Assembly (NCBI GenBank): GCA_028819845.1
Contig: JAPPKS010000027.1
Location: 124,001 to 188,000 of the forward strand
Reading direction: 5' to 3'
From: Candidatus Poribacteria bacterium
GTDB lineage: Bacteria; Poribacteria; WGA-4E; PCPOR2b
Length of the DNA stretch: 64,000 bases
In this document: one piece after another, positions 26,121-34,598 of the stretch
How the letters are laid out: every line of letters starts with the position of its first letter
How positions within the stretch are numbered: position 1 is the stretch's first letter
The notes under the pieces: generated by a model
Databases searched by the model: none
Told to the model about the DNA's origin: nothing
What the model saw: only the letters and a program-made list of their open reading frames with translations
Made by a program: the position numbers and the translations under genes

Positions 26121-27413
26121 TCAGGAATCAATTAAAATAGGAACCCTATGAATTACATTTCCGAGATATCCTCCGGGGTTCCAAGGTTGCCTGAAAGGTT
26201 GTGCGTTGCCCTTATTGTCAAACGCACGCGCCCATATTTCATAGTATCCTCTTTTCTCAAAGGCGGTTTCGGTCTCCCAATGATACCAAGCGTACCGATT
26301 CGACGGTTTGATCAGCCTGGTCTCTTGCCACTTGATGCCGTAATCAGTTGAAATTTGAACTTTATCGACTTTGTTTTCTCCCGACCATGCGTGGCCCCCA
26401 ACCTGAACAGGCGACCCTGCACTGATTTCCAGTCTATCAGAGTCCGTGGCGGCGTTCGATTTAGGTCTGGTGATGAGCGACTTGATTAACGCTGACGTGG
26501 CAATTTCCATCTCGTTTTCGGGCGATGTGATTCCTGGCACCGGAGGATGTGCCGGTATGCGGTAAGAGTACCCGCTCATTTTCTTCGAGTCATGAACTCG
26601 ATCTCTAATCAATATGCGGTTCAACCACTTCTGCATCGCACTGCCAATCCAACCCGGCACAATCAGTCTCGCGGGAAATCCGTGTGCCGCCGGCAAATCC
26701 TCTCCGTTCATCTTGAAAGCAATCAACGTATGCTCATCCATTGCCTTCTCAATCGGAATCCCCCGAGAAAACGCTTCCCCCGAATCAACCGGTAGGTCTT
26801 CGCCGTAGTTACCGGTGTAAACGGCGGTATTTTTTAAGCCCGCGGCTTTCAAGACATCGCGCAAGCGCACCCCGGTCCATTTGCTGCAGCCGACCGCACC
26901 ACGAATCCACTGCGTTCCGTCAACTCTCGGTGTGAATAGACTCCTGCCATTTCCTGCACATTCCACCACCGCATGCGCTGTCACGTTTGGGAAACGCATT
27001 AGGTCGTCCATCGAAAGCGTGAGTTTTCTATGAACCTCCCCATCAATCGTCAATTTCCAACCATGTAAATCGCCGAACTTGGCGCGTTTCGGTATGCTGC
27101 TGTTGTTGCGCACGAAATGCCGAATAGTGGGCGTTACGTCCGCGTCAAGCAGGTGCGGCGGAAACTCACCGTTAAATGGATTCTGCGAGTGAACAATCAT
27201 ATCCGGTTTCGGGAGTAAATTCGGTGCAATCTCCCCCCAAGCGTTGGGGATGAGTCCTCCGCCAAACAGTCCTGGCACGGCAACTTCCGAACCTGCGCCA
27301 AAAACGCCCAGTCCCGCAAGCACAGCCCCTTTGCTTAACGTTGCAAGGAACCGCCGCCGCGTATAACGACTGCGTGAAGAACGGTTAGTAAAGGTATGCT
27401 TATGTTCCATCAT
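26121..27413 (-). CDS. Tat-exported sulfite-oxidase-family molybdopterin oxidoreductase (SoxC/SorA-like)
   Basis: 430 residues. The N-terminus has a twin-arginine signal (YTRRRFLATLSKGAVLAGLG, residues about 17-36), so the protein folds with cofactor before export. The molybdenum-ligating cysteine is C152 in VVECAGNGRS. Other family marks are TRVDGTQWIRGAVGC-like RVDGTQWIRGAVG, HGFPARLIVPGWIGSAMQKWL and a C-terminal Mo-co dimerisation domain (VQVGGHAWSGENKVDKVQIS, WARAFDNKGNAQPFRQPWNPGGY). There is no haem domain. The likely reaction is oxidation of sulfite or a related sulfur compound; a SoxC role would need soxD and the other sox genes, which are not in the window. It stands divergent from the selenoprotein peroxiredoxin, 618 bp away. 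Confidence 0.9.
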   Translation of the reverse strand: MMEHKHTFTNRSSRSRYTRRRFLATLSKGAVLAGLGVFGAGSEVAVPGLFGGGLIPNAWGEIAPNLLPKPDMIVHSQNPFNGEFPPHLLDADVTPTIRHFVRNNSSIPKRAKFGDLHGWKLTIDGEVHRKLTLSMDDLMRFPNVTAHAVVECAGNGRSLFTPRVDGTQWIRGAVGCSKWTGVRLRDVLKAAGLKNTAVYTGNYGEDLPVDSGEAFSRGIPIEKAMDEHTLIAFKMNGEDLPAAHGFPARLIVPGWIGSAMQKWLNRILIRDRVHDSKKMSGYSYRIPAHPPVPGITSPENEMEIATSALIKSLITRPKSNAATDSDRLEISAGSPVQVGGHAWSGENKVDKVQISTDYGIKWQETRLIKPSNRYAWYHWETETAFEKRGYYEIWARAFDNKGNAQPFRQPWNPGGYLGNVIHRVPILIDS

Positions 27414-27690
27414 TCAATATCCATCTAACACGCAGGTAGCAAGCAATAACGACGAATTGAGGTATTCGCGCGCAAACTCTCATTACATGTAATTTATACC
27501 ATATAGAGAAAATTATTTTGGTTGGCTCTGCACTTCCACCGGATGAAGAATGCTTAATATCTAAAATTCGATTCCTGGATTTACCGCAAGCCAAGCATTA
27601 ATTTCCTCTTGCAAGCACAACGCCGTTTTGGACATTCTACGAAAATAACCACCTAATATTGCAAATATTTTGGTTTGCACGCTAACCTCT

Positions 27691-27716
27691 GTTTGATGTT
27701 TTATCAAACATCAAAC
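27691..27716. promoter_or_regulatory. 11-bp perfect inverted repeat
   Basis: GTTTGATGTTT and AAACATCAAAC flank a TATC centre, giving a perfect 11-bp arm palindrome. There is no adjoining T-tract, so it looks more like an operator or a cruciform/RNA hairpin than a rho-independent terminator. It lies about 270 bp upstream of the peroxiredoxin promoter. Confidence 0.4.
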
Positions 27717-27962
27717 GAAATAGTCCAATTGAAGCATTTCGGATTAATAACCGGGAATGCTGCACAATGCGGGATTTACACGACAGTCTCGCTTCTAACC
27801 GTGCCGATTATTCTACACTTTTTCGTGGATTGTGTCTATTAATTTACGGCTTCAATCCCAACGCAACAATCCGGTTTCGCGGTGCAGCGGGCACAACCGG
27901 AGAATCTGCGGATGCTCCTCCATGAGTAACAGCGTATTACGGTTGTGCGTTTTGAATCGGTC

Positions 27963-27991
27963 TTGACGGCTGCGGTGCGGATTGATATAAT
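27963..27991 (+). promoter_or_regulatory. sigma-70 promoter of the peroxiredoxin gene
   Basis: TTGACG (27963-27968), a 17-nt spacer and a perfect TATAAT (27986-27991). Expected transcription start is near 27998, leaving a leader of about 34 nt with AGGAG at 28021-28025 before the ATG at 28032. Confidence 0.7.
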
Positions 27992-28031
27992 GCTGGCTTA
28001 AAATAAACTCGCAAATACACAGGAGAATCGG

Positions 28032-28493
28032 ATGACAGACTTAAAATCGCTGGAAGTTGGTATGGATGCGCCAGATATTGAAATGGAAGATGCGGACGGC
28101 GTTGTGCATCGCCTGCGCGGTTACGTTGGGAGTAAAAACGTCGTTCTGGCTTTTTATCCGAAAGACTTTACCAGCGGGTGAACGGCGGAGGTTTGCTCGC
28201 TCCGGGATGAGTCGAGCCAATTTTCAGCACGCGATGTACAAGTTTTCGGTGTCAGTGTGCAGGACGCTGAGACTCACCGAAGGTTTGCCGAACGCTACGG
28301 CTTGAACTTTCCGCTTCTTGTGGACACGGACCGCACCCTAAGTTTGCTATTCGGTGCCACTGACCAACCGGACGGCATGAGTAGCCGCACGACGGTTGCA
28401 ATTGATAAAGCTGGAACCATTGTAAAAATTGACAAGCAGGTAAACGCGGCTGTGCACGGCAAGGATTTAATCGACTTTTTCGACGCAATGTAA
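28032..28493 (+). CDS. bcp: selenocysteine-containing peroxiredoxin (BCP/PrxQ type), TGA 28179-28181 read as Sec
   Basis: 153 residues if the in-frame TGA is read through. The frame starts at ATG 28032 (AGGAG 6 nt upstream, near-consensus promoter) and reads to TAA at 28491-28493. The upstream part ends VVLAFYPKDFTSG, the TGA is residue 50, and the chain continues TAEVCSLRDESSQFSARDV. In BCP/PrxQ peroxiredoxins this site is FYPKDxTPGCTxE, so TGA stands exactly at the peroxidatic cysteine; C55 matches the resolving cysteine of the C-x4-C motif. The remainder is standard BCP (NFPLLVDTDRTLSLLFGA, SSRTTVAIDKAGTIVKI). Expected role: thiol-dependent reduction of hydroperoxides in the cytosol, with faster chemistry through selenium. 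A bacterial SECIS candidate follows the TGA at the right distance. The alternative is a nonsense mutation of a Cys codon; intact flanks and signals argue against it. Confidence 0.85.
28193..28220 (+). promoter_or_regulatory. bacterial SECIS element candidate
   Basis: Immediately 3' of the in-frame UGA the mRNA can form an 8-bp stem: 28195-28202 (GCUCGCUC) with 28209-28217 (GAG, bulged U, CGAGC). The apical loop is CGGGAU, and weaker U-A pairs extend the base. The loop begins 21 nt after the UGA and has a G at its second position. Both match the described bacterial SECIS pattern: loop 16-37 nt downstream and a G among the first two loop bases. It is inside the coding frame, as required for SelB recruitment. 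Confidence 0.75.
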
Positions 28494-32852: not shown

Positions 32853-34439
32853 CTAGGAAGCGGTTGCGCGTGCTTGAATTGCATCTCTGACTTTAGAAGG
32901 TGTTTGAACCGCAATATCCTCCGATTTGAGATAAGCGTTGGGGTCATGATGCAGTCCTCCGTCCGGAAGCCATTCCCACAGTGATCCAAGGTCTCTGCGC
33001 ACGCGATCGACATAGAATTGTGGAAGTTCGGTAGTCTCGCCTTCGAAATAGGATCGAAACTGCTTATCCGTGTCTAGCCGTTGGCGCACCTCGGTAAAAT
33101 ACTTAATTCGGCCAAATCCTTCCGAAGACACAGCCCTGACAACGTTCAGCCATCGCGGGATAGTATCCTTAATCACACGATATCGGTTGATTATTGCATG
33201 GCGTGAAAACGAATGCTTGCTCACATCGACCACCTGATCATAAAATTCCGGCCAAACATAGTGCTTCGGCTTGACGTTCATCGCGTGGTTGTTGTTCAAG
33301 AAGTGAAATGGGAACGGGAGTACACGATCGGAGCGCTGGTATTCGAGATTGAGCGGAGCAGCTTGTCCAAACGACGAAATCAGCGAATAGGCGGGAAATG
33401 CACCCGGCGTCATATCTAAAAATCGCTTTGTGAGTTCAAAGGGTTCCGCGCCTTCGTCAACGTCAAGGCCAAACACGAAGTTCGTTTGCACGTAAGGGAT
33501 ATACCGTAACATGGTATTCACATGATCCGAGACTTGCCGGACTTTGTCAATGCCTTTCGTTTTGCCGGTCTTCGACTTATTTCCCATATCGTACCACGAC
33601 TCAATTCCGGGCAAGATAGCTTTGAATCCATTGTATTTGAGCCGCTTCAAATGCGGCTCTGACAAGAGAGCGAGACTGCTCTCCGCGATGAAATCAATGC
33701 TGTCGGGCGGCACCGCTTCCTCTATGGCATCCATATAATCGTTGAACCGCACGCCAAAGTTCGGATCGTGCCAACCGACGCGCGGCCGCCTAAACTTCCG
33801 CATCAGGAACCGCAAATCATCCTTGATGACATCAAAACTCAATTGCTGATACGGTACGACCGAATCAATGCAGAAACTACAGGTGTAGGGACAACCGAGG
33901 CTGCCGATCATTGGTACAATCTTGATGAGCGGCGCTTTGTGGAGCGTCTGTTCGATAAATTTCCATCGTTCGCGGACTCCCGGCAGCGTTCTTGGCTGCT
34001 GCTTGGCTGCGATGTGCACGCCGACGGGTCGGTGCTGCGAACAGTCGCGCAGGACATCATGAATCAATGCTTTATCTGTGAAACCGAGGACGTAGTCGAA
34101 ATACTTTTGCGCATCCTGCGGGTAACAACGAGCGTGGGGCCCGCCGAGTACAGTAACAGCGCCTTTTGACCGAAACAGGTTGCTTAACGCATACGCCAAT
34201 TGTCCAGCCTGTGAGAACGCGCCGATAAAGACTAAATCAACGTCCTGCGGCAACTCCTCCGTTAAGTTCTCAAAACCGGTATAGCACACAAGTGTGACAT
34301 CGTGCCCTTCCTCTTCGCACCATGCGCCAATGACTTGCGGCATAATGCTGGCAAAATTGGCGTGCATTACGCGCCCCCACAATGCTTTCGTCGGACCTTT
34401 AGTCACAAGGTCGATAATCCCGATTCGGAGTTTTCGCAT
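32853..34439 (-). CDS. B12-binding-domain radical SAM protein
   Basis: 528 residues from the ATG at 34439, which has a G5 run 4 nt upstream; 20 further residues are possible from 34499. The N-terminal 135 residues look like a cobalamin-binding Rossmann domain (GHDVTLVCYTG, DVDLVFIGAFSQAGQLAYALSNLFR, VTVLGGPHARCYP). The radical SAM cysteines are C183, C187 and C190 in GCPYTCSFC. A TIM-barrel-like region follows (WHDPNFGVRFNDYMDAIE, GFKAILPGIESW, YVQTNFVFGLDVDEG). Family members methylate or rearrange unactivated carbons or act in cofactor and lipid synthesis; the substrate here is unknown. It is convergent with bioB with 126 bp between stops. Confidence 0.85.
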   Translation of the reverse strand: MRKLRIGIIDLVTKGPTKALWGRVMHANFASIMPQVIGAWCEEEGHDVTLVCYTGFENLTEELPQDVDLVFIGAFSQAGQLAYALSNLFRSKGAVTVLGGPHARCYPQDAQKYFDYVLGFTDKALIHDVLRDCSQHRPVGVHIAAKQQPRTLPGVRERWKFIEQTLHKAPLIKIVPMIGSLGCPYTCSFCIDSVVPYQQLSFDVIKDDLRFLMRKFRRPRVGWHDPNFGVRFNDYMDAIEEAVPPDSIDFIAESSLALLSEPHLKRLKYNGFKAILPGIESWYDMGNKSKTGKTKGIDKVRQVSDHVNTMLRYIPYVQTNFVFGLDVDEGAEPFELTKRFLDMTPGAFPAYSLISSFGQAAPLNLEYQRSDRVLPFPFHFLNNNHAMNVKPKHYVWPEFYDQVVDVSKHSFSRHAIINRYRVIKDTIPRWLNVVRAVSSEGFGRIKYFTEVRQRLDTDKQFRSYFEGETTELPQFYVDRVRRDLGSLWEWLPDGGLHHDPNAYLKSEDIAVQTPSKVRDAIQARATAS

Positions 34440-34598
34440 AGCGCCCCCTTTAGCTGTTTTCGTATGCTCGCTTCTAGTGAAATCACGGTCGGTAATCAAT
34501 GAATTCAGGTGGTCTCCATTGACTATATCCGCTACCGGTTTTCAATCTTATCAGTTTTCCAATTCTAGGTCAAGATGTATCTAGGTATTTGAATTCAA

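Follow-up and report, generated by a model that had tools for sequence, protein, structure and literature searches.

A gene in a Candidatus Poribacteria genome (assembly GCA_028819845.1) almost certainly encodes a selenocysteine (Sec) peroxiredoxin, as judged from sequence comparison: its single in-frame UGA would be decoded through a bacterial SECIS hairpin, and the gene would derive, by loss, from a two-domain ancestor carrying two Sec residues. It lies in a 64,000-nucleotide stretch of contig JAPPKS010000027.1, called here the window, and TGA is kept at the same codon by its orthologues in some 65 further genomes of Poribacteria. An earlier note, made from the letters of the window, had described a hidden selenoprotein with Sec at the peroxidatic position of a BCP/PrxQ-type peroxiredoxin. 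This interpretation is supported, and each of its predictions that could be checked here held. It missed, however, that the usual form in the order is a fusion of two domains with two Sec, of which this gene appears to keep a single domain.

When the locus is re-read with TGA as Sec, the frame contains one TGA, at residue 50 (MTDLKSLEVG...FYPKDFTSG-U-TAEVCSLRD...FFDAM, then stop). In agreement with the earlier description of a BCP/PrxQ frame broken at its catalytic residue, the protein, with Cys put at residue 50, matches the Pfam family AhpC-TSA (PF00578) with an E-value of 6.1e-34 and 117.1 bits for a gathering score of 26. The peroxiredoxin active-site motif PxxxT/SxxC(U) and the conserved arginine are present as P43, T47, U50 and R119, and C55 stands five residues past the peroxidatic residue, where BCP/PrxQ proteins (COG1225) have their resolving cysteine. 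An AlphaFold model of the window protein has a confident peroxiredoxin fold (pLDDT 89.5, pTM 0.87), to which the closest solved structures are BCP, Sulfolobus Bcp1 and mycobacterial AhpE. The window gene, UGA codon included, is confirmed as a real peroxiredoxin gene with an interrupted frame. As the earlier note had stated, a standard listing of open reading frames (ORFs) gives only a 78-aa fragment from 28257. The promoter and ribosome binding site that it had proposed were also located, the former on suggestive grounds (Table 1). A heuristic scan of the 64-kb window for other selenoprotein frames returned nothing convincing except the TGA at 28179.

Table 1. Features of the Sec-peroxiredoxin locus (positions are those of the window)
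Feature	Position	Strand	Basis
Promoter-like TTGACG-N17-TATAAT, TG before the second hexamer	27963..27991	+	Consensus scan, 11/12 matches; suggestive only
Ribosome binding site AGGAG, 6 nt 5' of ATG	28021..28025	+	Sequence
Single-domain Sec-peroxiredoxin gene, BCP/PrxQ type, 153 aa with UGA = Sec (predicted)	28032..28493	+	Pfam, predicted fold, orthologues
UGA codon, Sec50, peroxidatic residue	28179..28181	+	TGA in 67/67 domain-2 copies; aligns with the AhpE peroxidatic Cys
Cys55 codon, presumed resolving cysteine, five residues past Sec	28194..28196	+	Invariant in domain 2
Bacterial SECIS hairpin	28195..28217	+	8/8 pairs in 47/50 distinct sequences; compensatory changes; codon-level constraint

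Two neighbouring genes of the window deserve mention. Upstream, a divergent sulfite-oxidase-like molybdopterin enzyme with a twin-arginine-like N-terminus is encoded on the minus strand at 26121-27413, and the roughly 618 bases between it and the window gene show no detectable coding. On the same strand, 32853-34499 encodes a 548-aa protein that looks like a radical-SAM protein (CPYTCSFC motif) and has no Pfam match at E 1e-5.

The hairpin downstream of the UGA has the features described for bacterial SECIS elements (PMC1088965), namely a stem-loop just 3' of the UGA with a G in a small apical loop. Its stem pairs 28195-28202 with 28209-28217, with one bulge at 28212 or 28213, and the six-nucleotide loop CGGGAU (28203-28208; CG[GU]GAU across copies) starts 21 nt past the UGA. 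Folded singly, the window hairpin has an unremarkable energy compared with dinucleotide shuffles (z about -0.4 to -0.9), and the case for the element therefore rests on comparison. The full stem arose in only 0.5% of trials in which synonymous codons drawn from the rest of these genes were used to encode the same protein. One pair shows a two-sided change from C-G to U-A. In sequences that have A or U for the G at position 20, a one-base displacement of the partner mostly preserves pairing. Codon choice in this region is frozen: the Leu codon at +7 is CTC in 66/66 copies and the Ser codon at +12 is AGT in 59/65, whereas the top codon reaches only 37-64% at invariant Leu columns elsewhere. An Rfam scan of the locus gave chance matches only.

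In nearly all relatives, one open frame encodes a signal-like N-terminus followed by two peroxiredoxin domains, the second of which is the counterpart of the window protein. UGA is found in both active sites in 63 of the 66 two-domain frames. Two of the three exceptions (L034 and L072) appear to be interrupted where a contig ends or the assembly has a gap, and in the third, a second copy in genome G045 (L032), Ser replaces Sec in domain 1. The domain 1 motif of this copy is degenerate and its domain 2 still has UGA; perhaps it represents a step towards the single-domain state. The tandem two-Sec form, that is two fused peroxiredoxin domains each with its UGA, is not found in the window gene, which has domain 2 only, and no remnant of domain 1 was detected upstream, at 27401-28031. 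In a phylogenetic tree, the two domains form separate, well-supported clades (98/98 for domain 1 and 98/99 for domain 2), and it is within the latter that the window protein falls, on a long branch (0.55). The fusion is therefore old, and the window lineage has most simply lost domain 1. Given the long branch, some relaxation of the window gene may have followed this loss.

Judged by eye from their hydrophobic N-termini, the two-domain relatives are probably exported; the window protein is probably cytoplasmic, because the signal peptide has been lost together with domain 1. In a collection with organism names, the carriers of the two-domain form are Candidatus Poribacteria. Outside this phylum the tandem two-Sec form was not found in the collection and the relatives are single-domain proteins only, some with UGA (Planctomycetota, Myxococcota and Blastocatellia) and some with Cys.

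In a search of 85 Poribacteria genomes, almost all members of the order gave orthologues with 47-68% identity and exactly one TGA each. The comparison of residue 50 between homologues, called for in the earlier note, gave a uniform answer: the catalytic position is U in all 67 aligned domain-2 copies and Cys in none of them. Cys occupies it in homologues outside, such as L162 and L164, and the UGA is thus placed at a redox position conserved as UGA or Cys. Standing at the homologous codon in every domain-2 copy aligned, the TGA is not there by chance. Compared with the nearest copy, identity is 71% after the TGA and 54% before it, and the differences are mostly at third codon positions, with a dN of about 0.2 after the TGA and a saturated dS. 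Together with the conserved TGA, this higher identity and third-position bias exclude a pseudogene and indicate that the product beyond the UGA is under selection. In parallel, a more distant peroxiredoxin-like match (28-32% identity, one TGA) was observed in genomes of family f4 (e.g. G048:C150:1417-1797 and G065:C67:28426-28806); matches of this type recur in many genomes, where the open frames that contain them are mostly about 370-410 aa long.

UGA decoding in general competes with release factor 2, and the codon could on this ground be seen as a regulated stop that mostly terminates, with a short peptide as the main product and Sec read-through only when selenium is plentiful. Such a reading is very unlikely, since the greater conservation of the downstream half argues that selection acts on the full-length product. 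Less probable still is a decaying gene, a peroxiredoxin pseudogene that would have acquired the TGA by sporadic nonsense mutation. The long branch and the disappearance of domain 1 and of the signal-like N-terminus relative to the family would agree with decay, but the same-codon TGA in all aligned copies, the otherwise intact frame, the better conserved portion past the TGA and the retention of both the SECIS and the peroxiredoxin catalytic residues do not. The earlier note had named a sporadic mutation of this kind, or a genome devoid of selB and tRNA-Sec, as findings that would overturn its view; neither was encountered.

The genome that contains the window (4.61 Mb, 35 contigs, 96.6% complete) has the complete bacterial set of selA, selB, selC and selD, whose existence the earlier note had deduced from the gene. 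The tRNA-Sec at C21:5473-5562 scores 77.5 bits for a cut-off of 47 and is called SeC, with anticodon TCA, by ARAGORN. It is adjoined by selB (373.8 bits, cut-off 242), itself adjoined by selA (ORF C21:7547-9058, recognised by sequence and position only), and the three form one cluster. Finally, selD was found at C10:184709-185632 (377 bits) and carries its own UGA (KCAG-U-ASKL), as is known for many SelD proteins. A reassigned UGA (as in code 4 or 25), read as Trp or Gly with no selenium, has the in-frame TGA and nothing further in its favour, is at odds with this canonical machinery, would leave the SECIS unexplained, and is of negligible probability, being ruled out by the large ORFs of the window, 12 of 34 of which (at least 200 aa) end in TGA, including the 500-aa ORF whose stop at 1546-1548 had already been cited.

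Across the 85 genomes, tRNA-Sec was above its cut-off in 75 and selB in 76. In two genomes of family f5 (G003 and G004), selB stays below its cut-off (best E about 1e-33 to 1e-34), the tRNA-Sec matches are no better than borderline and Sec-peroxiredoxin is absent; the Sec trait was likely lost there within the phylum. The window genome contains four further likely selenoproteins, on contigs C22, C10, C30 and C10 respectively: a TlpA-like protein (L090, FWTTS-U-GPC), two peroxiredoxin-like proteins (L091, GQF-U-PFC; L092, GTW-U-PNS) and SelD (L100). In the TlpA-like and the first peroxiredoxin-like protein, the UGA is followed by a clean hairpin whose loop is 3 nt long.

With the UGA taken as a Sec codon, the steps can be proposed by analogy with established systems. 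As in bacterial Sec decoding, SelB and Sec-tRNA-Sec would bind the hairpin, and Sec would be inserted at codon 50. Following peroxiredoxin chemistry, Sec50 would attack the peroxide to give a selenenic acid, which Cys55 would presumably resolve into a selenenylsulfide, and a thioredoxin-like protein may then serve as the reductant of this bond. In evolutionary terms, a two-domain, probably exported, two-Sec ancestor would have lost its signal peptide and domain 1 to give the window gene.

The two heads of the fused form are not alike. Domain 1 has TGGU, with the catalytic Thr kept, in 64/64 copies, and Cys at +5 in 24/64 only, the position being otherwise occupied by Q, R, N, K or S; it is thus without a resolving Cys in about 60% of genomes. 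In contrast, all 67 copies of domain 2 carry Cys at +5, and 52 of them have Gly for the catalytic Thr. This complementary retention of Thr and Cys suggests a division of labour in which one head would reduce the peroxide and the other would resolve or relay. It is rather likely that this double-headed peroxiredoxin of Poribacteria, which is probably exported and has unlike heads and two Sec per chain, each decoded independently, is a selenoprotein architecture not described before. The window gene would be a natural dissection of this double-headed form, with domain 2 alone and both the catalytic Thr and the Cys at +5 present.

Poribacteria are a largely uncultured phylum, mainly known from sponges, and they very probably use selenium for peroxide defence. 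Enrichment of SelA and SelB has been reported in sponge symbiont bins (PMC5649159). Sec genes of such a kind would be missed or split by standard gene callers, and the tandem form would require two Sec insertions per chain. The asymmetry of the heads offers a direct test of the splitting of peroxidatic and resolving roles, for which the window genome provides a natural single-domain comparison. In addition, the set of hairpins (67 copies at one site and 64 at the other) is of use for comparative studies of how SelB recognises its targets.

The Sargasso Sea survey, which counted 43 genes, already made single-domain Sec-peroxiredoxins of COG1225 (BCP group) known (PMC1088965), and another study reported 253 genes and a fusion of peroxiredoxin with a phosphatase domain (PMC2398784). 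No peroxiredoxin fused to a second one was seen in the latter, and a further inventory lists Sec-peroxiredoxin with one Sec (PMC13188914). Neither selenoprotein, peroxiredoxin and Poribacteria together nor Poribacteria with peroxiredoxin was found in the open-access literature. Likewise, neither a tandem two-Sec peroxiredoxin nor any selenoprotein of Poribacteria was found described in this literature, and an earlier description may exist elsewhere. The earlier note over-rated the novelty of the gene, given the long-known COG1225 proteins (PMC1088965).

The window gene resembles several known systems. The Sec-peroxiredoxin family (TxxU, PF00578/COG1225; PMC1088965, PMC2398784, PMC13188914) shares with it a BCP-group peroxiredoxin, a peroxidatic Sec and a SECIS just past the UGA; that family has one Sec, whereas the ancestral poribacterial form would have two domains in tandem with two Sec, the window copy having one of each. 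BCP/PrxQ, a thioredoxin-dependent thiol peroxidase, has the same fold, length and five-residue spacing (C-T-x-E-x-C for U-T-A-E-V-C in the window), with Cys where the window protein has Sec. The latter scores under the NCBIfam equivalog cut-offs for BCP/PrxQ (NF006960, 82.7 for 140; NF053650, 92.5 for 260) and is therefore named PrxQ-type and not filed under these equivalogs. PrxU of Eubacterium acidaminophilum is also a bacterial Sec-peroxiredoxin; compared through NCBIfam NF040737 (peroxi_PrxU), it is represented by a larger model of 233 positions, against which the window protein reaches 50.5 bits for a cut-off of 270. No NCBIfam model accepts the window protein. Double selenoproteins such as MbdU, MduS and the UxxU peroxiredoxin-like proteins have two Sec per chain, as do the two-domain relatives, but none, in the parts of that inventory consulted (PMC13188914), is described as a tandem of two peroxiredoxin domains in which either domain has a UGA and a SECIS of its own. 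Taken alone, the window gene would simply add one member to a known family, and the novelty lies in its two-domain lineage.
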